This document shows positions 6,479-58,562 of a stretch of 64,000 bases of DNA, piece by piece (within the stretch, counting starts at the first letter, position 1; each line of letters opens with the position of its first letter). The notes under the pieces were generated by a model. The model was given only the letters and a program-made list of their open reading frames with translations, made no database searches and was not told the origin of the DNA. The stretch is from Arenibacter hampyeongensis (GTDB taxonomy: Bacteria; Bacteroidota; Bacteroidia; Flavobacteriales; Flavobacteriaceae): NCBI RefSeq assembly GCF_002909255.1, contig NZ_PIOB01000001.1:558001-622000 (forward strand), read 5' to 3'. The translations under genes were made by a program, and so were the position numbers.

Positions 6479-8287
6479 TTAAACCTCAGATAAAGAAAGT
6501 GCCTCAATTTCTAGTTTAAAGCCTTCCAATGTTTTTAGGCCATGGGTCAATTCCGCTAGAATAGAACCTTTTAATTGTTCAAATTGTCCTTTAAGACCTG
6601 CAAATAATTGTTGGTAATAGCCGATGCCATCATTTAAATTATGGGTAAATGTCAACAGGTATTTCTCTTGTTTCTTATTCATGGAATACCGCGATTCTTC
6701 AATTTTATTTTTAAGATAATCAAGGTAAATTCCAAGTTCCTTAATAAACATATGGGGTCTATCGGTTCTGGAAATCACATTTCCACGCCCGTAAATATGG
6801 TCTACCATTTCCTTTAAGGTCATTATTTTGGAATAATAGGCCATATTGGGTCCGGGGCATATAGATACGCCTGGTCCTTCGGTTTTGGTATCCAGGCCAT
6901 AGGCCAAAAGGGCAGAGGTACCGAGTCCAACACAGGTACATGATTTCTCTGTAATTTTATTCAATCTTCCCGCGTATTCCTTTTCTGTTAAATTTTGGTC
7001 ATCCAGCTCCTTAATTTTTAAATGTTGGTATTGCCTTGACGCTGTACAGAGCCCTTTTTCCGAGTAGTCCTTGTTCAAGGCCACAAATTTCTTTGGGCAG
7101 GAGCTTCCAGGTCTATCCTTATCTATATTTTTTAATTTTTCCAAATCCTTGGTGTTTCCACGAAGGTTATGGAAGGGTACTCCCAATGGGGAAATATCAC
7201 TTAAGTACAAATCTTCTTCTTTCGCCGCAACCAATTTCTCCAGTGTTGCCTTATCCACTGTAGTGGCCTCCGGGACCAATAGAAATGGCGTTCCCCAACC
7301 AACAGAGTCTACCTTGTAATGATCCAATAGAAATTCGTGTTCCTCAACGGTGCCTACACCGCCTTGGGCAGTTATTTTTAGGGATAGATTTTGTTTTGGT
7401 ACTGTCCGGTCCTTGTTGACCAGTGCAGGAATTAAAATTTCATGTATTTCCTCTATATAAGCTCGTTTGTTGTCCCTGAACTCGGCCATTATAGGCCCCA
7501 TTAAATACCCGTCGGTAGCAAAGGCATGTCCGCCACAATTAAGACCGGATTCTATTCTATACTCCGACACCCAAATTCCTTTTTTGGCCAAGAACTTACC
7601 TTGAATAAGTGCAGACCTATAATCGCTTACCTTTAAAACTATCTTCTTTTTAATATTTCCGTTTTCATCGGGAAAAAAATCATCGAAATTTTCCAGGTAA
7701 CTATAAAGTCGGGGGTTCATTCCCGCAGAAAGAATAACGGAGGAATTTAGTTCGCTATTGGCATATCCGCGCAGTGCGGCATGGGCATCATTAAATTCGG
7801 TAGGCAGCTTAACTTTTTTGATAAAATTCTCCTTGTCCACCTTGGTCATAATATTTACGTCTATACTGCCCATGGTCAAATTCTCCTTCAACCATTTTTT
7901 AATTTCCGCAGCACTGAAATCGCCGGTAGTCAGTTTTTCAAATTCTAGCTGGAGAGAAAAGGCGTTTGGTAAAAGGCCTAAATATTCCTTTATTTCATTT
8001 CCTGTTTCTTGCACACAATTTTTTAAGTCCTCAAATTTTTTGTGTGCCGCGTCATTTATCAGGTTGAGATAACTGGTAATTCTTTTCGCTCTAAAATCAT
8101 CCAGCTTGTCTGAAATCTCTTGATAAGGGAGCTCCAATTTTTCACAGTACATTTTCCTTAATTTTTCGATAAGGATGTCATCGACCAAAGAAATAACGGA
8201 ATCTATACCTAAGTGGGAAACTTTTAAGGGAGTATCTATGGTAAACCCAATTCCCATAACCGGGATATGAAAGCTATGTTTATTCAT
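6479..8287 (-). CDS. Nitronate-monooxygenase-like flavin TIM-barrel protein with Cys-containing C-terminal region, function unknown
   Basis: A 602-residue cytoplasmic protein starting at the ATG at 8287; a TTG at 8323 would add 12 residues. Three segments occur in the order seen in nitronate monooxygenase/2-nitropropane dioxygenase enzymes: CGGH (251-254, with the family's histidine), AQGGVGTVEEHEFLL (307-321, the FMN phosphate region) and GTPFLLVPEA (332-341). It is much longer than the usual ~320-350 residues. It has ~200 extra N-terminal residues and a C-terminal region with cysteines at 397, 414, 450, 452 and 477. I do not recognise a named function. Its promoter region carries a CRP/FNR-type palindrome in the same geometry as those of the 43-48 kb stress genes. 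Confidence 0.7.
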   Translation of the reverse strand: MNKHSFHIPVMGIGFTIDTPLKVSHLGIDSVISLVDDILIEKLRKMYCEKLELPYQEISDKLDDFRAKRITSYLNLINDAAHKKFEDLKNCVQETGNEIKEYLGLLPNAFSLQLEFEKLTTGDFSAAEIKKWLKENLTMGSIDVNIMTKVDKENFIKKVKLPTEFNDAHAALRGYANSELNSSVILSAGMNPRLYSYLENFDDFFPDENGNIKKKIVLKVSDYRSALIQGKFLAKKGIWVSEYRIESGLNCGGHAFATDGYLMGPIMAEFRDNKRAYIEEIHEILIPALVNKDRTVPKQNLSLKITAQGGVGTVEEHEFLLDHYKVDSVGWGTPFLLVPEATTVDKATLEKLVAAKEEDLYLSDISPLGVPFHNLRGNTKDLEKLKNIDKDRPGSSCPKKFVALNKDYSEKGLCTASRQYQHLKIKELDDQNLTEKEYAGRLNKITEKSCTCVGLGTSALLAYGLDTKTEGPGVSICPGPNMAYYSKIMTLKEMVDHIYGRGNVISRTDRPHMFIKELGIYLDYLKNKIEESRYSMNKKQEKYLLTFTHNLNDGIGYYQQLFAGLKGQFEQLKGSILAELTHGLKTLEGFKLEIEALSLSEV

Positions 8288-8395
8288 TTTAGCATTTTTT
8301 GTTGGGCTGTTCAAGTTTTTCAACTAAATGTTTACACTAGAGGTATCCAATCATAGGATAACTACCTGGCATTGTACAGTCCAAATATGAATCGA

Positions 8396-8438
8396 CAAAT
8401 TTTATACGAAATGAGTTCTTAGAATATGATAATTATCA
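8396..8438 (-). promoter_or_regulatory. CRP/FNR-type operator plus -7 box (minus strand)
   Basis: The palindrome TGAT-AATT-ATCA lies at 8427-8438. Read on the minus strand, AAAATTTG (one mismatch to TAnnTTTG) begins 35 bp after the palindrome start, at 8403-8396. No TTG sits at the -33 position. This is the geometry seen at the 43-48 kb sites. It would drive the nitronate-monooxygenase-like gene with a 5' leader of about 105 nt. Confidence 0.6.
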
Positions 8439-43204: not shown

Positions 43205-43247
43205 TAAATCTATAAGCTATAGTTTGTAATAAATATGATATTGGTCA
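43205..43247 (-). promoter_or_regulatory. CRP/FNR-type operator plus -7 box of the universal stress protein gene
   Basis: TGAT-ATTG-GTCA at 43236-43247. On the minus strand TAGATTTA (one mismatch to TAnnTTTG) begins exactly 35 bp from the palindrome start. The -33 position reads ATT, not TTG. Transcription would begin near 43201, about 16 nt before the ATG. Confidence 0.65.
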
Positions 43248-43376
43248 TAACTTCCGGCTTGCTGCGCTTTTAGGAAACTATGTTTACCCCTAAAAACCAT
43301 GAATAAAATGTTTTTTAAACAATTCGGTTTAATGAGGAATCAACAAACTAACAACTAATCTTAAATTTAACTAAAC

Positions 43377-43419
43377 TGATCTGAATCATTCCAAAAGGCA
43401 ATTTGTTGGTGTATTTTAG
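43377..43419 (+). promoter_or_regulatory. CRP/FNR-type operator plus -7 box of the HMA-like gene
   Basis: TGAT-CTGA-ATCA at 43377-43388 and TATTTTAG (one mismatch) at 43412-43419, a 35-bp offset. The -33 position is TCC. It is 33 bp from the ATG at 43452. Confidence 0.65.
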
Positions 43420-43451
43420 TAACAATTGGAATCTTATAAATCCAATACTTC

Positions 43452-43721
43452 ATGAAAGCTATAGCTAAAATCGGGAACCTAATTTCCAATAAGGACAAAA
43501 TTGTAATCCTCCGTAACCTGAGTCGCATTATGGATATTAGAATAATAGACCTTGAGGTTGACACGGGTAGACTCATTTTTCTTTACTATAGCCCAATAGC
43601 CTTGGAACAGGTGAAGCAAGAACTTTGGAGAATTGGATATCCCATAAGGCATTTTAAATTCCTTTCCCCATTAAATCCAAATTTGCAGAACGATGGGAGG
43701 AATGAAACTGCCCTTGCCTAA
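43452..43721 (+). CDS. Small HMA-fold-like protein without metal-binding cysteines
   Basis: An 89-residue soluble protein. Its alternating pattern (KIVILRNLSRIMDIRIIDLE, then GRLIFLYYSPIALEQVKQEL and WRIGYPIR) fits the beta-alpha-beta-beta-alpha-beta fold of heavy-metal-associated domains, including the final RIGYPI. The CxxC metal site is absent, so if it is HMA-derived it does not bind metal in the usual way. It is expressed from a CRP/FNR-type promoter divergent from the universal stress protein. The assignment rests on the pattern alone. Confidence 0.6.
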   Translation: MKAIAKIGNLISNKDKIVILRNLSRIMDIRIIDLEVDTGRLIFLYYSPIALEQVKQELWRIGYPIRHFKFLSPLNPNLQNDGRNETALA

Positions 43722-43897
43722 TTATTCCTTAATAATTTATTTCGTTGAACGCTAATTTGCCAACTCTATCACAGGGGGAACCTAAATTGGCTGTTAATAA
43801 TTCTTGGGTTAATGTTGGCTGGGGGTAACCATTGTAAATTTCCACTATTCCAGTAGAATTGGCTATAATTGGAAGTCGCTTCTGATGATAATTATGA

Positions 43898-43940
43898 TGA
43901 TCTTTATCATAAAATAACAGATAAAAGAAGTTTACTTTTG
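43898..43940 (+). promoter_or_regulatory. CRP/FNR-type operator plus perfect -7 box of deoC-deoD
   Basis: TGAT-CTTT-ATCA at 43898-43909 and TACTTTTG at 43933-43940, an exact -7 consensus at a 35-bp offset. The -33 position is AAA. This is the clearest example of the arrangement in the window. Confidence 0.75.
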
Positions 43941-43995
43941 GTGAAATGGGCTTATTGGCCATAGGGAGCATTACCAACAAGATTTACGTTTACAA

Positions 43996-44640
43996 ATGCA
44001 ATTTGAAAATTTTATAGACCATACTTTATTAATACCTATAGCAACAGAGGAAGATATTAAGCGCCTTTGCTTGGAAGCCTTGGAGTATAAGTTTTATGCC
44101 GTATGTATCAACGGTTGCTACATATCCCTTGCAAAAGAATTGCTAAGAGGTTCTAAGATAAAGCTGGTCGCGGTAGTAGGATTTCCCTTAGGGGCAATGA
44201 CCACTTGGGCGAAAGTACAAGAAGCTAAGGATTACATTAAAAAAGGAGCCCATGAATTGGATATGGTCCTGAATATCGGATGGCTTAAATCCGGTAATTT
44301 TTTAGCCATTCAAAATGAAATAACACAAGTAAAAAAAGTTCTGGGGGGCGGTGTATTAAAAGTTATTTTGGAAACCTGTTATTTAACAGATGAGGAAAAA
44401 AGGATGGCCTGTACATTGGCGGTAAATGCCAAAGCAGATTATGTTAAGACTTCAACTGGTTTTGGTTCTGGCGGGGCAACTTTCGAAGATGTGGTTCTAA
44501 TGAAGTCTATGGTTGAAAACAAGATCAAAATAAAGGCATCTGGAGGAATTAAAGATGCCGCTACAGCTAAAAGATATATAGATTTAGGTGTTTCCCGAAT
44601 AGGGACTTCCTCTGGAGTTGCCATTGTGACCAACCTATAA
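43996..44640 (+). CDS. deoC: Deoxyribose-phosphate aldolase
   Basis: A 214-residue class I aldolase that splits 2-deoxyribose-5-phosphate into glyceraldehyde-3-phosphate and acetaldehyde. The Schiff-base lysine is in ADYVKTSTGFGSGGAT, the proton-relay aspartate is in ELDMVLNIG, and the second lysine is in KIKASGGIKDAA. The start is ATG 43996 (MQFENFIDHTLLIP). It lies 48 bp ahead of deoD, so nucleoside salvage genes form one unit. Expression appears to depend on a CRP/FNR-type activator. DeoC and DeoD together would feed deoxynucleosides into glycolysis. Confidence 0.95.
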   Translation: MQFENFIDHTLLIPIATEEDIKRLCLEALEYKFYAVCINGCYISLAKELLRGSKIKLVAVVGFPLGAMTTWAKVQEAKDYIKKGAHELDMVLNIGWLKSGNFLAIQNEITQVKKVLGGGVLKVILETCYLTDEEKRMACTLAVNAKADYVKTSTGFGSGGATFEDVVLMKSMVENKIKIKASGGIKDAATAKRYIDLGVSRIGTSSGVAIVTNL

Positions 44641-44688
44641 ATTGGGTTTCCCTAAGGCACACCCTTGTTTATAAAAATTGAAGTAAAA

Positions 44689-45387
44689 ATGAGCGTACAT
44701 ATTGATGCTAAAAAGGGTGAAATTGCAGAAACCGTATTATTGCCAGGGGATCCGTTAAGAGCCAAATGGATAGCGAATACCTTTCTTGAAAATCCTATTT
44801 GTTATAATCAGGTTCGCGGTATGTTGGGTTATACTGGAACCCATAAGGGAAAACGCGTGTCAGTTCAAGGAAGTGGGATGGGCATACCTTCCGCACTGAT
44901 CTACTATCAGGAGTTGATCAATGATTATGGGGTTAAGAATCTAATTCGTGTAGGTACTGCCGGTTCATATCAAAAAGAGGTTAAGATACGTGATATTGTC
45001 TTGGCCATGGCAGCTTCTACGACCTCGGGAATCAATAATTCAAGATTTATTAATGCTGACTATGCCCCAACCGCTGATTTTGATTTGCTTTTGAAAGCTG
45101 CACTTTACGCCAGTGAAAAAGGTATTGCCATTAAAGCGGGGAATGTACTTTCTTCGGATGAATTTTATGAGGATGACCCCAATTCCTATAAATTATGGGC
45201 AAAATTCGGAGTCCTTTGTGTGGAAATGGAGGCGGCCGGATTATATACCATAGCTGCCAAATTTAATATTAAGGCCCTTACCATATTGACTATTTCGGAT
45301 TCTTTGGTGACGGGTCAAAAATCAAATTCCATAGAAAGGGAAACCACCTTTAAGGAGATGATAGATATTGCACTTAATATTGCCTAA
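44689..45387 (+). CDS. deoD: Purine-nucleoside phosphorylase, DeoD type
   Basis: A 232-residue hexameric-type purine nucleoside phosphorylase. It begins [20 protein letters not shown] and continues DPLRAKWIA, which contains the phosphate-binding arginine. The ATG at 44689 is preferred to one eight codons upstream because it matches the family N-terminus. [15 protein letters not shown] supplies the ribose-binding glutamate, and [12 protein letters not shown] the catalytic aspartate. It splits purine (deoxy)nucleosides with phosphate. It is the second gene of the deoC-deoD unit. Confidence 0.95.
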
Positions 45388-45520
45388 GATAAAGATACGA
45401 CTATCCTTTTTTTAATTCTCCGTACCTTATTTATGCCATCTTTTTTAAAGCAAAAGGAGAATTTTTGACCACCTGGAAGAGCATTTCAAGGAAAAACGCA
45501 ATTAACTTAGGTTACCAATA

Positions 45521-45563
45521 TGACCCAGGTCATTTTACAAGCCAATAGATAAAGCCATTTTTG
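45521..45563 (+). promoter_or_regulatory. CRP/FNR-type operator plus -7 box of the DUF2267 gene
   Basis: TGAC-CCAG-GTCA at 45521-45532 and CATTTTTG (one mismatch) at 45556-45563, a 35-bp offset. The -33 position is TTT. The predicted start is about 20 nt before the ATG at 45588. Confidence 0.65.
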
Positions 45564-45587
45564 TATATATCCCAAAATTAAGCAATC

Positions 45588-46040
45588 ATGGCACTCAATT
45601 TTAATCAGTATGCTACAGAGGGACATACCTTCTTAAAAGATTACACAAAACAAATGGATATGGGCAAGGATACCGACAAAGCTGGTCGGATTCTTACTTC
45701 CATACTTCATGCCTTAAGGGAAATTATTCCGGTTGCGGAGTCGCTGCAATTTATTGCGCAGTTACCCATGTTTTTAAAAGGGGTCTATGTAACGGGATGG
45801 ACCCTAAAACAGCAAAAACCCAAAATTAAGAATATGAGCGAATTCTTGGACTTGGTTAGACAATTTGACGGGCCGGCCGCTGTAAACGATTTTGAATATA
45901 GTGATGAAGTGGCAGAAGAATATGTAAACACTACCTTTCTCTATTTACGAAAATATGTCTCCCAGGGAGAAATGGCCGACATCCGTGATAGCCTACCAAA
46001 AAATCTAAAAGGAATGATTTTTAATAATTTAATATTCTAA
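45588..46040 (+). CDS. DUF2267 family protein
   Basis: A 150-residue soluble, helical protein. The pattern DKAGRILTSILHALREIIPVAE, then AQLPMFLKGVYVTGW, EFLDLVRQF and VSQGEMADIRDSLPKNLKGM is that of DUF2267, a family without known function that often accompanies stress and CBS or universal-stress genes in bacteria. It is expressed from a CRP/FNR-type promoter, like its neighbours. A tiny membrane-peptide frame follows 11 bp later and a DinB-like gene 192 bp later. Confidence 0.8.
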   Translation: MALNFNQYATEGHTFLKDYTKQMDMGKDTDKAGRILTSILHALREIIPVAESLQFIAQLPMFLKGVYVTGWTLKQQKPKIKNMSEFLDLVRQFDGPAAVNDFEYSDEVAEEYVNTTFLYLRKYVSQGEMADIRDSLPKNLKGMIFNNLIF

Positions 46041-46051
46041 TAACCAATATT

Positions 46052-46132
46052 ATGACCTTATACTTAGCACTTTTTATTTATGCCAGTATTTATGTATTAT
46101 CCTTTAAGTTAAAAAGACATTCAATAGCTTAA
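46052..46132 (+). CDS. Possible 26-residue membrane peptide
   Basis: ATG-started, 11 bp after the DUF2267 stop: MTLYLALFIYASIYVLSFKL plus a short basic tail RHSIA. One hydrophobic segment followed by lysine and arginine fits a single-pass small membrane peptide, similar in style to oxidase-associated small subunits. The same composition could arise by chance in AT-rich DNA. Its place behind an oxygen-type promoter is the only support. Confidence 0.3.
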   Translation: MTLYLALFIYASIYVLSFKLKRHSIA

Positions 46133-46232
46133 AAAAACATGGGTATATAAGGTCCTAATTGGAGTATGACAATCTATATTATTTCCACGAACTACCTATA
46201 TTCATTAATATTTATATTTAATCTGATATTTC

Positions 46233-46688
46233 ATGAAATCAAAAACACAGTTGTTTATCGAGTTGTGGGAGGAAGCCAGAACCCGGTTTTCGAATCAATT
46301 ATCCAAATTAACGGAACACGATTTAAGCAAAAGGTTATTTCCCGCTCCCAATAGTATAGGCTTTCTTATCCGACATATAGGCGATGTTGAACTACTTTTT
46401 GCAAAAAATGTATTTGGCGCGCAGGATATAAAGGTTATTGCAAAAACGGTTATCGCACAAAAGGATACGGGGGAGTGGACCAATTTGGGGGAATTATTGG
46501 AATATGTACAATATTCATTTTTAATGATAAAGGCGATAATGGAAAAGCAGGAAGATAAGGACTGGGAAACTACCATTACCACCAAAGAATTTGGAACAAA
46601 GACCAAGGCGGAGGCATTTGGAAGAATTGTTTCCCACACCACCCATCATTCTGGTCAAATGGCAATCATTATGAAATATGGATCTTAG
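46233..46688 (+). CDS. DinB-like (DUF664-type) protein
   Basis: A 151-residue four-helix-bundle protein of the DinB/YfiT superfamily. The metal-binding histidines are in GFLIRHIGDVE (near residue 48) and HTTHHSGQMAIIM (near 135-139). Such proteins are often thiol-dependent transferases or hydrolases using Zn or Ni, but no substrate is known here. The start is ATG 46233. It is convergent with the DUF302 gene, whose stop is 3 bp away. Confidence 0.8.
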   Translation: MKSKTQLFIELWEEARTRFSNQLSKLTEHDLSKRLFPAPNSIGFLIRHIGDVELLFAKNVFGAQDIKVIAKTVIAQKDTGEWTNLGELLEYVQYSFLMIKAIMEKQEDKDWETTITTKEFGTKTKAEAFGRIVSHTTHHSGQMAIIMKYGS

Positions 46689-46691
46689 AAT

Positions 46692-47084
46692 TTAATGGAT
46701 CTTCTCTACCACCTTCTTTAATTTTTCGCCTACTTCATCCGCAATATTCATTAAATCCAAGTTAATTACGGCCTGCATGGACGCCATAGGGTTTACAGCT
46801 GCTATTTCTACTAGTCCAGCTTCCTTTTCCATAACAATTACATTACAGGGCAACATGGTGCCAATTTTATCTTCGGCCTGTAGAGCTTTATGTGCAAAGG
46901 GGGCGTTACAGGCACCCAAAACGGTATAATTATAGAAATCCACGTCCAGTTTTTTCTTCAGGGTAGCTTTCATGTCTATTTCCGTCAATACCCCAAAGCC
47001 CTCTTCCTGTAGGGCCAATTTGGTTTTTTCCACTGCTTTTTCAAAAGGGGTATTTCCAATTGTTTTGTTAAAATAGTATTCCAT
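46692..47084 (-). CDS. DUF302 domain protein
   Basis: A 130-residue protein covering one DUF302 domain: FEKAVEKTKLALQEEGFGVL, then YTVLGACNAPFAHKALQAED and MLPCNVIVMEK, with cysteines in GACNA and LPCNV at the conserved positions. DUF302 proteins have no settled function; many are found with stress and sulfur genes. No signal peptide. It has no CRP/FNR-type site of its own in the 120 bp upstream, unlike its neighbours. Confidence 0.88.
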   Translation of the reverse strand: MEYYFNKTIGNTPFEKAVEKTKLALQEEGFGVLTEIDMKATLKKKLDVDFYNYTVLGACNAPFAHKALQAEDKIGTMLPCNVIVMEKEAGLVEIAAVNPMASMQAVINLDLMNIADEVGEKLKKVVEKIH

Positions 47085-47204
47085 AATAAGATTATTAATG
47101 TGTTTTTAATATAGTAATTAATGTACTATTCTTTTAATCCATTTAAATTGGTCTTTACCGCATATAAGGTAAAGTGGACTTTTAAATAACAAGGGCTACA
47201 AATA

Positions 47205-47241
47205 ATAAAAAGGATTGGGATATCTAAATATCCCAATCCTT
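47205..47241 (-). terminator. Minus-strand intrinsic terminator
   Basis: A perfect 14-bp stem (47210-47223 and 47228-47241) with the 4-nt loop CTAA, followed on the minus strand by TTTTATTATT. No recognised minus-strand gene lies ahead of it; it is 120 bp upstream of the DUF302 start. Confidence 0.75.
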
Positions 47242-47430
47242 CAGGTCCGGGGCAAGTAGCCCATTTAACTAATCCAAGTCCTGGACGGCGCGTTGCAGTT
47301 GCAACATCCGTACAAGTTGATAGGGTGATTAGGCTCAAGAAGTTACTTGTGTACCGGTTTATGGTCCCTAAGGCATTACTGCTTAGAAACTTTATTGTTA
47401 TATCTATCAAAGAACGATTGCTTTTATGAT
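47205..47430 (-). ncRNA. Candidate minus-strand transcript, coding status unknown
   Basis: About 225 nt between a CRP/FNR-type site with a weak -7 box (47435-47477) and a strong terminator (47205-47241). The stretch is relatively GC-rich for an intergenic region and contains complementary GTCC/GGAC segments. Only very short frames are present. It may be a regulatory RNA, a leader or the remains of a gene. Confidence 0.35.
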
Positions 47431-47434
47431 GGAA

Positions 47435-47477
47435 TCAATTTACAATAATTCAATTGGACTTAAAATGATTTAAATCA
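47435..47477 (-). promoter_or_regulatory. CRP/FNR-type operator with weak -7 box
   Basis: TGAT-TTAA-ATCA at 47466-47477. On the minus strand TAAATTGA, with TA and TT conserved but the last two bases not, begins 35 bp away. On the plus strand nothing resembling a -7 box lies at this distance. The minus direction leads to a terminator rather than to a recognised gene. Confidence 0.4.
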
Positions 47478-47632
47478 TATAGTCAATCACATTCTTCATT
47501 TTTTCTAAAGTGAAAGGTGATTTTAATCAATTCATTTGGATATAACCGATTATTACAAAGCCCAAGGTATTTTGTTCTTTTAAATTATATCCTAGTCCAT
47601 TCACCTCCCTTGACGTCTAGGGCACCCATAAC

Positions 47633-47675
47633 TGACAAAGGTCATAGGGTGGCATAATGTTAAGGAATAGCTTTA
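47633..47675 (+). promoter_or_regulatory. CRP/FNR-type operator plus -7 box of the flavodoxin-like gene
   Basis: TGAC-AAAG-GTCA at 47633-47644 and TAGCTTTA (one mismatch) at 47668-47675, a 35-bp offset. The -33 position is AGG. Transcription would begin near 47680, about 120 nt ahead of the ATG at 47799. Confidence 0.65.
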
Positions 47676-47798
47676 TAATTTAAAGCTCTGGTAAAAGATT
47701 ATTGCCAATTCACAAAATATTTGTATGTGCATTGGATTGTAATACGATGTACGTATCGCATCAAATCTTCTGGATATAATATGTACGTAAGTAGAATT

Positions 47799-48320
47799 AT
47801 GAAAAAGGCTAAAAAGATATTGCTCACATTTTTATCCATTGTAGTGGTGTTCTCGGTGTTCATGCTATGGTATCAAAATGAATATTCCATGGACATTGCC
47901 GAGGAGTATGAGGTAAATTCTCCCATGGAGAATTCCAAATTACTTATCGCAACCCAGGGAAGTAAGTTTAAAAATACAATTACTACCGCTATTGTAGAGT
48001 ATTATAGATCGGAGTCCATTTATATTAAAATAATAGATGTTTCTTCATTGGCAGATGTGAACCCTACCAACTACAATGCACTGTTAATTATTCATACCTG
48101 GGAGATGTGGAAACCACCGGCATCTGTTAAATCTTTTATCGACAGAATCATGGAGGATAGGGACAAAATGGTTGTGCTGACCACTTCGGGAGAAGGGACT
48201 TACAAAATGGAAGGAATAGACGCAATTACAGGAGAATCCATTTTGGATGAAACTCCCATGTATGTGGGTAAAATCATCAATGACTTAAATCTGTTACTAA
48301 AATTGAACAAGTCGCAGTAG
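47799..48320 (+). CDS. Membrane-anchored flavodoxin-fold-like protein
   Basis: A 173-residue protein. The ATG at 47799 gives MKKAKKILLTFLSIVVVFSV followed by FMLWY, an N-terminal membrane anchor. Earlier in-frame ATGs at 47721 and 47781 would put 26 or 6 residues before it. The remainder has the alternating pattern of a flavodoxin-like fold (KLLIATQGSKFKNTITTAIV, then YNALLIIHTWEMWKPPASVK, DKMVVLTTSGEGTY). TQGSKFKN sits where flavodoxins bind FMN phosphate, but it lacks the usual T/S-x-T-G-x-T form, so FMN binding is uncertain. Induced from a CRP/FNR-type promoter. Confidence 0.65.
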   Translation: MKKAKKILLTFLSIVVVFSVFMLWYQNEYSMDIAEEYEVNSPMENSKLLIATQGSKFKNTITTAIVEYYRSESIYIKIIDVSSLADVNPTNYNALLIIHTWEMWKPPASVKSFIDRIMEDRDKMVVLTTSGEGTYKMEGIDAITGESILDETPMYVGKIINDLNLLLKLNKSQ

Positions 48321-55522: not shown

Positions 55523-58237
55523 TTAGTAGTCTTCCTCTACAACAGAATATTTTTTTTCAAGGTAGCCAATACGCCCATCTGAGGAAATAGCTTCCACAAT
55601 GATTATATATTCCCCTGCAATATCCCCATTGTAAAAGCTAACCGATGTCTTTCCGTTTTGATCGGTCCGTATACTGGGCGCCCAATGGATCACAGATCTT
55701 AAATCCGGTTTTTGGCTGTCGGCCGGAAGCTTTCTATCGTATTTAGGGGCATAAAATTCCTTTTCCGGGCTAAAGACCTCTATTGTTGATTCGAGTGTGC
55801 CAGGTGCAGGTCGATGGGTACCATGAATGCCAACTCCTCCCTTGGTATAGACAGAAATAATATGGCCTAAAGTAGGAGCTTCCAAGGGATCTGTCTCGGG
55901 AAAAACGGTCAGGTACTGTTTTACGAAAAATTTGGCATATTTAATAAGTTCCACACTTTCGACGATACCTGGGGGCATATGGGGAACAAATTCATATTCC
56001 TCTTTAGTGAGTAATCTGCCATCCACCACCAACAAGGTCGGTTCACCCCGGCCTCCTCTAATATTGGCCAGCATAAAGCCATCGGAAAATTGCTCTATTT
56101 CTACCTGGTCCCCATATTCGAACATTAGGATGCTGTACAAGCCGTAGGACCATTTCCTTTCTTTGGAACGTATGATGTCCCCTTCTATGACCATGTCCGG
56201 CTCCCCGAATTGCTTATAGGCCTTTTGTCGTTCAGGTGTCAATCGATAACCCTCCACCACAACCTCGTCCAACTGTGTTACCCCATTCAGGGAGTCGAAT
56301 ATCGCCTCTGTTTTTTGTCTGTTTTGTTGGGCCAGTACCACGGACCGTGCTACAGGATGTACTTTTTGAACAGAAATAATCGGTTCAAATTCTACTTTTG
56401 GACTATTCAGGGTATCCATAAAAATGGTGTAGTTGGTTTTTTTGCCCTCTTGGTCCTTGCTATCGAGCAATATCTTCATCCGTTTGCCATAGGCGTCGTC
56501 CAATAAAAAATGGAACCTTCCCATACTATCCGTTTCCTGTGTATAAATAGAAGGTGACTTACCAAAAGTGACCAAGGAGATATCAGCATCGCTGACAAGC
56601 TGTCTTTTTGGAAAGCCCGAACGCACTGTACCCTTGACTACAAGTGCTGGTTGGGGCCAATAGAACTTAGGCCCCTGCCTTTTTACCGGATATTTGTAAC
56701 GTCGCCATCCTTGCGTAAGCATTAGGGCATCCAGATCGTAGGAACTGTTTGGTCGATCTTCCCTGAAGTAAAAATCGGGTTCTTCCACTTCTCCCTTTAG
56801 TTCGGAGGTCAATAAAAAATAGGAGCGAATGGTCTCTCCCTTCCCCTGATGCCAATGTTCCTTGTTTATGGCCAAAATGGATAGATCGGTGGTTGTTGGC
56901 GCCAAACCTTTTCCAGAAACCTCAATATCGAGTTTGGTCGATTCCTTCCGCCTATATTGTTTTTTGTTCGTAGACAAGGAAATATCCAACCGGTCCTGTT
57001 CGGATTCGTTAAAGTACAAGCGTTCGGCTATAGGAATCCGTTGTCCGTCAATGAGGGTAAATACTATGATTCCTTCTGGCAATTTGCTAGAAGGTAAATG
57101 GTAAACCAAGCGACCTTCCCGTAAGGCCCCCTCCATTAAATAATAATCCGTTCCCCTGCAACTAGCCTTGATAAATACACGGTCGTTCAAATAATTGGAT
57201 TCCACTTGGATACGGATCTTATCCTTGGCCCTGCCCACTGAAAGGATGCTTCCCTTGGATACTGCTTTGGGCAAGGGATAGGTTACCTCGGTTTCGAGCT
57301 TGTCCGAATTAACAATGTTTGCACTATAGGTGGAACTACTATCGGCCTCCAAAAAGAAAAAACCCATACCCAAATTGTTGCTCATAAAAGAGGCTACCTT
57401 TTGGCCTTTGGCATCCAATACCTTGCCTTGGACTGCTATTCCCTTTCCATCCAAACCTACTGCCTTAAAACCGATTTTGTTGCGGAACCCATGGATTATT
57501 TCACCACCTTCGGGAAAGAACTGTAAATCCAATGGGGGATTGTTCAGAACTATTGTTCTGGTATGGCGAAGACCTTGTCCAGCGTCCAAAGTGAGGTTAA
57601 TCCAATCTAATTTTTCTGGAATTTCGTAATCCAGTGTATATAGATTTTTGCCCTTTCTGTTGACCTTGATAGTATCTTTGCCCTTGCCCCAGTCCAGATA
57701 TACCAGAACCTGACGTTCATACACACTTCCCATTCTTTGTGGCCAGAGCTGGCCAGTTAAGGTCCAACGCCCATGCTCTTTTTCTACTACGGACATGGCC
57801 TCGATAGGGTCCTTATCATTATTTTGGATTGGGGCAAATAGATCAATATTGGCCTTGAACATAAAATCATCACCGAAATTACGGTTCCATTGGGTATAGG
57901 CGCGGATCAAATAACGCCCTTGTGTCATGTTCTTATTGAGTTCAAAGGCTCCCCTGCCAATACCCTGGGTAAGTTTCACTAGTCTATGTGATACAATTTG
58001 CTCATTGGGTCCTATCAGGTCTACATAGAGCAAACGACTTAGGTTGGATGGAATATGGTTTTCAGTTCCGGTGACAATAGCCTTGAACCAAATGTCCTGA
58101 TCTAGGGCATAGGCGTTGGAAGGGAGCTGCAGGTATATCTTTTCAGCTACTGATGTATTTATAGAGGTATTAAAATCTTGAGAAAAAATGGGGAAGGATA
58201 GCAAAATAAAATAAATCAATGTATACCCATTTCTCAT
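55523..58237 (-). CDS. MG2-domain surface protein with TonB-plug-like domain
   Basis: A ~904-residue exported protein (signal peptide MRNGYTLIYFILLSFPIFSQ from the ATG at 58237; a TTG three codons upstream is unlikely). Residues ~30-130 form an alpha-2-macroglobulin MG2-like domain (KIYLQLPSNAYALDQDIWFK). Middle regions have repeated beta-sandwich patterns. Near 650-760, QLDEVVVEGYR and LANIRGGRGEPTLLVVDGRL resemble the plug domain of TonB-dependent receptors. The beta-barrel that would follow is missing, so it is not itself a transporter. I infer a periplasmic or surface scaffold common in this phylum. Confidence 0.75.
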   Translation of the reverse strand: MRNGYTLIYFILLSFPIFSQDFNTSINTSVAEKIYLQLPSNAYALDQDIWFKAIVTGTENHIPSNLSRLLYVDLIGPNEQIVSHRLVKLTQGIGRGAFELNKNMTQGRYLIRAYTQWNRNFGDDFMFKANIDLFAPIQNNDKDPIEAMSVVEKEHGRWTLTGQLWPQRMGSVYERQVLVYLDWGKGKDTIKVNRKGKNLYTLDYEIPEKLDWINLTLDAGQGLRHTRTIVLNNPPLDLQFFPEGGEIIHGFRNKIGFKAVGLDGKGIAVQGKVLDAKGQKVASFMSNNLGMGFFFLEADSSSTYSANIVNSDKLETEVTYPLPKAVSKGSILSVGRAKDKIRIQVESNYLNDRVFIKASCRGTDYYLMEGALREGRLVYHLPSSKLPEGIIVFTLIDGQRIPIAERLYFNESEQDRLDISLSTNKKQYRRKESTKLDIEVSGKGLAPTTTDLSILAINKEHWHQGKGETIRSYFLLTSELKGEVEEPDFYFREDRPNSSYDLDALMLTQGWRRYKYPVKRQGPKFYWPQPALVVKGTVRSGFPKRQLVSDADISLVTFGKSPSIYTQETDSMGRFHFLLDDAYGKRMKILLDSKDQEGKKTNYTIFMDTLNSPKVEFEPIISVQKVHPVARSVVLAQQNRQKTEAIFDSLNGVTQLDEVVVEGYRLTPERQKAYKQFGEPDMVIEGDIIRSKERKWSYGLYSILMFEYGDQVEIEQFSDGFMLANIRGGRGEPTLLVVDGRLLTKEEYEFVPHMPPGIVESVELIKYAKFFVKQYLTVFPETDPLEAPTLGHIISVYTKGGVGIHGTHRPAPGTLESTIEVFSPEKEFYAPKYDRKLPADSQKPDLRSVIHWAPSIRTDQNGKTSVSFYNGDIAGEYIIIVEAISSDGRIGYLEKKYSVVEEDY

Positions 58238-58562
58238 TGTGAACAACTGTTTTGTTAAAAATGTCTTGCTGTTATTCAGGATTACAATTTAGTGATTTTT
58301 GGAACAATATGTTGTAAACGATATATTATCAAGCAGTTATACTGAAATAAATATATCAAAGAGGCGACCTTTTTTATCATTGGAAGAAAATGGCGAAAAG
58401 CAGGAACTTGAGGATATCTGCGATTATAGGCAGCCTTCCCAAATTATTGGCAAATAATTATTTAAAGCCTGTCATAGTTCCAATATCAATTTTCATTTCC
58501 TTGGGTGTGAGAAGTGTCCATTATTTTCAATGCTTTGCGCCATTTTTATTGTTCGGTTTCCA
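58238..58562. other. Intergenic region of 325 bp
   Basis: It contains coding relic B (58380-58457). No promoter of the standard form was found ahead of the surface-protein gene, and no hairpin terminator after the sulfatase gene. Confidence 0.55.
58380..58457 (+). pseudogene. Coding relic B, related to relic A at 54.6 kb
   Basis: A 25-codon open segment (ENGEKQELEDICDYRQPSQI plus IGK) ending in a natural-looking stop codon. It matches relic A in frame. Without an upstream coding part it is a 3' fragment. Confidence 0.45.

Follow-up and report, generated by a model that had tools for sequence, protein, structure and literature searches.

The stretch of DNA analysed here (hereafter the window) comprises 64,000 nucleotides of the 5.43-Mb genome of Arenibacter hampyeongensis (C1:558001-622000), in which seven copies of a CRP/FNR-type palindrome stand at one fixed distance from promoter −7 boxes. 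We consider it probable, at roughly 0.8, that CRP/FNR-family activators use these palindromes as operators, and that the promoters behind them are activator-dependent and of class II. The arrangement had been picked out in a sequence-only reading of the window, and all seven palindrome coordinates given there (43236, 43377, 43898, 45521, 47466, 47633 and 8427) proved correct (Table 1). Boxes were scored against the six fixed bases of TAnnTTTG, usually with a threshold of at least 5/6, and the offset was counted from palindrome start to box start, read towards the gene. By this measure each of the seven boxes begins exactly 35 bases from its palindrome, as claimed; six of them score at least 5/6, and that at 47466 only 4/6. 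More than one protein probably acts as regulator, the candidates being an FNR-like protein plus two fusions of receiver, cNMP-binding and Crp helix-turn-helix domains (REC-CRP). Among the matches listed, the closest named relative is Arenibacter sp. F20364 (89% identity of one regulator), and the remaining close matches of the regulator scan carry Flavobacteriaceae names.

Palindrome spacing and promoter position

The palindrome TGAYNNNNRTCA occurs 12 times in the window, against a mean of 3.88 (standard deviation 1.99, largest 9) in 100 dinucleotide shuffles. Counted in both orientations the palindromes number 24, and in 6 of them offset 35 is occupied by a box scoring 5/6 or better, where ∼0.24 would be expected at the local box rate of 1.0% (binomial P ∼ 1 × 10−7). 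Five palindromes of the window were absent from the sequence-only reading (47518, in the same interval as the sites beside it, plus 16972, 27569, 54524 and 55080); at none of these did offset 35 hold a box scoring 5/6 or more. Genome-wide, the extended form ATGAYNNNNRTCAT (ATGAYN4RTCAT) has 54 sites versus 24 for the reversed pattern. Fifty-three of the 54 were examined with their flanks, giving 106 oriented sites, and at offset 35 these carry 25 boxes of at least 5/6, 10 of them perfect. The remaining 85 offsets have 108 and 14 in total (averages of 1.27 and 0.16), and the runner-up, offset 36, has 5 and 3. The genome-wide spacing scan, which the sequence-only reading had named as a possible refutation of its proposal, spoke strongly for that proposal. 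Matches to the full pattern (TGAYN4RTCA-N23-TAnnTTTG) in the home genome numbered 66 with up to one mismatch (reversed control: 12) and 19 when exact (control: 0). In the home family, exact matches number 479 (control: 9) and come from 57 of the 60 genomes scanned, and 124 of 296 sampled genomes of the phylum contain it. Offset-35 sites lie outside open reading frames (ORFs) of at least 150 amino acids (aa) in 52 of 53 cases, compared with 70 of 105 for all palindromes in the same stretches. The base before TGAY is A in 31, C in 18, G in 3 and T in 1 of 53 sites, in agreement with the A or C reported from the window.

In the promoter map of Flavobacterium psychrophilum, as given in passages of PMC9723704, the TAnnTTTG box spans −12 to −5; combined with an offset of 35, this places the palindrome at −47 to −36, with its center at −41.5. 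The absence of TTG at −33, another claim of the sequence-only reading, is true of all 48 exact sites in the home genome and 16 family loci, and says little because only 2% of 920 palindrome-free boxes have TTG there. Class II CRP and FNR activators of Escherichia coli bind at sites centered on −41.5. Agreement with that class extends to the position of the operator center, the palindromic TGA core (TGAYN4RTCA) and the invariant E and R in the recognition helix of the regulators described below. The activator-dependent, class II interpretation is supported by the spacing scan, by the center at −41.5 and by regulator genes that track site number. A dimer at −41.5 would sit beside the would-be −33 element, where it would help the primary sigma factor of Bacteroidota to use a bare TAnnTTTG −7 box; binding, activation and the signal acting at the palindromes are all predicted from DNA and protein sequences.

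Conservation and gene content of the putative regulon

All seven window sites recur before the same genes in relatives of the same genus, two of them with weaker boxes. The genes for the universal stress protein, the 89-aa protein and the DUF2267 protein are present together in 6 of 10 same-genus deoC loci. The 43236 site keeps a 5/6 box at offset 35 in all six same-genus loci that have the universal stress protein gene there; the 43377 palindrome is likewise kept in 6 of 6 with the 89-aa gene (box 5/6 in four, 4/6 in two), and the 45521 palindrome, at offset 35, in 6 of 6 with the DUF2267 gene, with the box CATTTTTG in every case. Before deoC, a palindrome with a perfect offset-35 box was found in 9 of the 10 other same-genus loci, with drift confined to the four inner bases left out of account. 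The remaining locus (L079) has a degenerate palindrome, and another lies ∼30 bases upstream with a 4/6 box. All 15 same-genus relatives that hold the gene behind 8427 have the palindrome of this site, and in each of them a box scoring 5/6 stands at offset 35. For 47633, each of the 13 relatives with the gene has a palindrome and 5/6 box upstream (no more than 160 bases from the matched region in 10, at 365 to 583 bases in 3), and the 47466 palindrome recurs in the loci of the 10 closest relatives (L208 to L217) with a 4/6 box at offset 35, mostly TTTCTTTA.

Elsewhere in the genome, the genes directly behind offset-35 sites with boxes of at least 5/6 include ccoN of the cbb3 oxidase, a FixI-type ATPase gene, the divergent fnr-like gene, hemN and the copper nitrite reductase gene nirK, together with genes for PfkB, Hsp20, patatin, a cation ATPase, YceI, NadA, a sulfate permease, DnaJ and several universal stress proteins. 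A small cytochrome c gene, whose NorB-type match falls below cut-off, also stands behind such a site. On contig C27 sites are spread over ∼50 kb. Nine universal stress protein genes, all matching PF00582, stand there in a row (L016:10973-19378, minus strand), and five of the nine are each preceded by a separate offset-35 site, scoring 5/6 or better, that points at the gene. The 89-aa protein of the window has a paralogue at L064:6093-6308 (37% identity), and both genes lie behind offset-35 sites. This gene set points to a low-oxygen regulon. The redox or oxygen regulon proposed in the sequence-only reading holds up in its gene content, which matches oxygen-limitation regulons; activation of the genes and a response to oxygen are predictions. 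In the window, the targets switched on at low oxygen would be the universal stress protein, nucleoside salvage through deoC-deoD, the DUF2267 protein and others, perhaps including the DUF302 protein.

Candidate regulators and sensor kinases

The Crp helix-turn-helix family has seven matches in the home genome, five of them above cut-off. Three of the five share an E-x-x-x-R recognition helix: an FNR-like protein encoded within the cbb3 oxidase locus on C24, and the two REC-CRP fusions encoded on C27. All three would read the same ATGAY half-site, and the other two Crp-family proteins above cut-off are without the recognition-helix E. Both E and R are invariant in 31 of 31 FNR-like rows (30 genomes, the home protein appearing twice) and in 81 of 81 REC-CRP proteins. 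Cysteines 24, 27, 73 and 126 are invariant in the same 31 FNR-like rows; Cys 24, 27 and 126 have counterparts among the cysteines of solved FNR chains and Cys 73 has none, and this candidate would carry a four-cysteine, presumably oxygen-labile cluster. Its best NCBIfam family is Fnr (105.6 bits versus a cut-off of 228). We call the protein FNR-like, as distinct from a strict FNR of E. coli type, because of the ATGAY half-site and because isoleucine occupies the position of E. coli S212. The REC-CRP proteins retain a cNMP-binding domain, and the phospho-acceptor D52 is kept in 81 of 81.

REC-CRP loci were sampled from the best 80 of 579 relatives, all named (1.435 Mb; 16 loci from Flavobacteriaceae and 64 from others, L113 to L176), and in 77 of the 80 a histidine kinase ORF lies directly upstream of the REC-CRP gene. 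Kinase 1 of the home genome (917 aa; L017:12302-15055 on C27) directly precedes one REC-CRP gene and carries the LOV signature GRNCRFLQ in a PAS domain; blue-light photoreceptors are among its best solved relatives. A blue-light input to the low-oxygen regulon is possible on these grounds; only 4 of the 80 REC-CRP loci carry this signature. Kinase 2 (504 aa; L017:545-2059, minus strand) stands beside the second REC-CRP gene, and its N-terminal PAS gives an ungapped alignment with the heme PAS of FixL (E = 1.3 × 10−12), with the proximal His position kept. Among alignable kinases beside REC-CRP the FixL His position is kept in 49 of 58, and the FixL Arg position is Arg in 10 of 58. Flavin binding by kinase 1 and heme binding by kinase 2 are predicted, and the REC-CRP candidates would be driven by these adjoining PAS kinases, one LOV and one FixL-like.

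Site number follows the regulator genes. In the 60 family genomes, with regulators called at E = 1 × 10−30 (FNR) and 1 × 10−60 (REC-CRP), the median number of exact sites was 1 with neither regulator (n = 9), 5.5 with FNR only (n = 26), 8.5 with REC-CRP only (n = 10) and 16 with both (n = 15). Sites per Mb gave the same order (each class versus neither: P ≤ 0.004). A single regulator for all sites was rejected on these co-occurrence counts. It might be proposed that the FNR-like protein alone uses the sites, in a plain flavobacterial FNR regulon, and that the REC-CRP proteins have their targets elsewhere. The 26 FNR-only genomes do hold sites, an offset-35 site falls within the FNR locus in 17 of 18 loci from genomes without REC-CRP (11 of 12 from genomes with it), and single FNR proteins suffice in other phyla. 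Nevertheless, all 10 genomes with REC-CRP and no FNR match hold 5 to 16 exact sites, palindromes are sevenfold enriched over the reversed pattern around the 80 REC-CRP loci, and the recognition helices agree, which makes an FNR-only regulon unlikely. Paired regulator systems acting on one operator, a step beyond the finding made from the window, are probably the better description. In the sample of 30 FNR loci (L177 to L206) there is also a second box peak, made up by 19 of 88 oriented palindromes with a box at offset 21, which may reflect shared intergenic sequence beside fnr.

Several observations weigh against class II operators served by these regulators. Kinship and genome size both confound the co-occurrence of sites and regulator genes. 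Genome G372 (82% complete) has neither regulator and holds 9 sites, and G345, with an FNR-like match, holds just 1. All three regulators have isoleucine where E. coli FNR has S212, and the FixL-like PAS of kinase 2 is a match of sequence only. Among the targets, pta-ackA and the M50-CBS protease on C27 reach just 4/6 boxes, several window boxes are themselves imperfect (47466, and 43377 in two relatives, at 4/6), and outside the genus a deoC-directed site with a box of at least 5/6 was found in just 1 of 14 loci.

Putative tandem operators outside Flavobacteriaceae

Around the 80 REC-CRP loci there are 791 oriented palindromes versus 111 for the reversed pattern. Boxes of at least 5/6 number 173 at offset 35, with a second spike of 97 at offset 57. 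The value 57 equals 35 + 22; in the tandem form a second palindrome lies 22 bp upstream of the first, with its center at −63.5. Architecture varies with lineage: the 64 loci from outside Flavobacteriaceae hold 93 tandem cases (palindrome-22-palindrome-35-box) in 39 loci and 43 single sites, whereas the 16 Flavobacteriaceae loci hold 86 single sites and no tandem case. In the 64 loci the start-to-start spacing of palindromes is 22 in 134 counts; the values that follow in frequency are 23, a minor class with 16, and 35 with 6. Ninety of the 93 tandem sites lie outside long ORFs, and for 90 of the 93 an ORF begins no more than 400 bp away (median leader ∼48). The distal palindrome is stricter; the right half of the proximal one opens with C in 32 of 93. 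Tandem operators are absent from 25 of the 64 loci, including Runella and Dyadobacter loci. In a separate scan of 118 genomes, the tandem pattern with up to one mismatch gave 43 matches (reversed control: 0), spread over 14 genomes, and just 1 of the 11 home-family genomes scanned contained it, with three matches (G025, C28:125065-135300), for which horizontal transfer is a possible origin.

These data bear on whether the palindromes might instead be operators of a CRP-family repressor that lies over the −33 region and blocks RNA polymerase. The palindrome at −47 to −36 does adjoin the would-be −33 element, and none of the 48 exact sites has TTG there. A repressor needs no single spacing, though, and only offset 35 stands out; −41.5 is the position of class II activators in E. 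coli, and in other lineages a second palindrome lies 22 bp upstream. We regard repression as highly improbable. A dimeric regulator from outside the CRP/FNR family with a site like TGA-N6-TCA is scarcely credible, given that site number follows two CRP/FNR gene families and that the site clusters on C27 and C24 surround CRP/FNR regulator genes. Chance or the base composition of AT-rich intergenic DNA can be rejected: palindrome and box are both AT-rich, but shuffles, the reversed pattern and neighboring offsets do not reproduce the spacing signal, and sites are kept in relatives even as the inner four bases drift at deoC.

Comparison with known systems

Activation by CRP/FNR-family dimers at these operators would resemble E. 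coli FNR in its class II center at −41.5, in micro-oxic or anaerobic functions, in a four-cysteine regulator and in the E and R of the recognition helix. It differs in the half-site (TTGAT in E. coli versus ATGAY here), in the −7 box, which is the TAnnTTTG element used by the sigma factor of Bacteroidota, and in the cysteines (20, 23, 29 and 122 in E. coli versus 24, 27, 73 and 126 here). The mycobacterial DosR dormancy regulon also holds universal stress protein, hsp20-type, pfkB and M50-CBS genes under two-component control; DosR has a LuxR-type output and different sites from those here. A further parallel is offered by the rhizobial FixL-FixJ-FixK and hFixL-FxkR-FixK cascades (PMC4999443; PMC7888657); according to the former paper FnrN and FixK recognize very similar sites, with the FixK/FnrN consensus TTGANCNNGATCAANG. 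The likeness lies in a kinase that adjoins its regulator, a FixL-like PAS, a CRP/FNR-type output, cbb3 and related targets, and two regulators for closely similar sites. In contrast to the rhizobial arrangement, in which a response regulator induces a separate fixK, receiver and CRP output are fused here, and the half-site differs from ATGAY. In Burkholderia cenocepacia, the lxa locus is described in passages of PMC6127331 as comprising six universal stress proteins, a heat-shock protein and a phosphofructokinase in connection with limited oxygen. The same kinds of gene would be tied to low oxygen here; the phylum is another, and those passages mention no operator or REC-CRP.

Closer to the home family, cbb3 oxidase and heme genes of F. 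psychrophilum are induced by oxygen limitation (passages of PMC9723704), and that map shares with our sites both the position of the TAnnTTTG box and the oxygen-limited cbb3 and heme genes; its main text contains no word beginning with “Crp” or “FNR”. Flavobacterial CRP/FNR homologues from wastewater genomes have been placed near MalR, with a carbon response predicted (passages of PMC8510549), and the passages of PMC9239204 hold nothing on REC-CRP-type fusions in Bacteroidota. Among the matches listed from a library of open-licence papers, no report of a REC-CRP/FNR circuit was found, an absence that carries little weight.

With these parallels in mind we put forward, tentatively and at somewhat less than even odds, that the FixJ and FixK steps are fused in a phosphorylation-controlled REC-CRP that shares its operator with the FNR-like protein and takes its input from oxygen-type and, in few lineages, blue-light (LOV) kinases. 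This would be a widespread low-oxygen circuit of Bacteroidota, often with two dimers at −63.5 and −41.5 outside Flavobacteriaceae, the distal palindrome being the stricter, and reduced to a single dimer at −41.5 within Flavobacteriaceae. If REC-CRP proteins do share the sites of the FNR-like protein, two routes of oxygen control would be merged on the same DNA. Oxygen-dependent gene regulation has been little described in Bacteroidota, whose sigma factor uses another promoter code. A fixed operator position, few candidate regulators and a list of targets make the question testable in one strain, and the occurrence of single and tandem operators with one regulator family, at the same spacing in many lineages, amounts to a natural experiment in which the cooperation of activator dimers with an unusual RNA polymerase can be followed.

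Sites and genes of the window

The coordinates of sites and genes are collected in Table 1. Two protein labels of the sequence-only reading could not be upheld: the 89-aa protein called HMA-like has no Pfam or NCBIfam match, and “flavodoxin-like” corresponds to a single match far below cut-off. The real start of the latter ORF is probably further in, because relatives match from residues 4 to 27. The 47466 palindrome possibly serves the leftward DUF302 gene, whose start is ∼350 bases away.

Table 1. Palindromes, −7 boxes and associated genes in the window (positions counted from its first base)
Feature	Position	Strand	Remarks
Palindrome TGACCAATATCA, in the orientation of the universal stress protein gene	43236..43247	−	center ∼−41.5
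−7 box TAGATTTA, for the universal stress protein gene	43205..43212	−	5/6
Universal stress protein, 280 aa	42343..43185	−	PF00582
Palindrome TGATCTGAATCA	43377..43388	+	
−7 box TATTTTAG	43412..43419	+	5/6
89-aa protein	43452..43721	+	no family match
Palindrome TGATCTTTATCA, before deoC	43898..43909	+	
−7 box TACTTTTG	43933..43940	+	6/6
deoC, deoxyribose-phosphate aldolase	43996..44640	+	TIGR00126 above cut-off
deoD, purine-nucleoside phosphorylase	44665..45387	+	TIGR00107 above cut-off
Palindrome TGACCCAGGTCA, before the DUF2267 gene	45521..45532	+	
−7 box CATTTTTG	45556..45563	+	5/6
DUF2267 protein	45588..46040	+	PF10025
Palindrome TGATTTAAATCA	47466..47477	−	
Weak −7 box TAAATTGA	47435..47442	−	4/6
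DUF302 protein	46692..47084	−	PF03625
Further palindrome TGATTTTAATCA	47518..47529		strand unset; no box at offset 35
Palindrome TGACAAAGGTCA	47633..47644	+	
−7 box TAGCTTTA	47668..47675	+	5/6
Possible flavodoxin-like protein	47721..48320	+	weak TIGR01754 match (20.1 bits vs cut-off 163.8)
Palindrome TGATAATTATCA	8427..8438	−	
−7 box AAAATTTG	8396..8403	−	5/6
614-aa conserved protein	6479..8323	−	no family match

Elsewhere in the window, a 907-aa ORF without a Pfam match extends over positions 55523-58246 on the minus strand.

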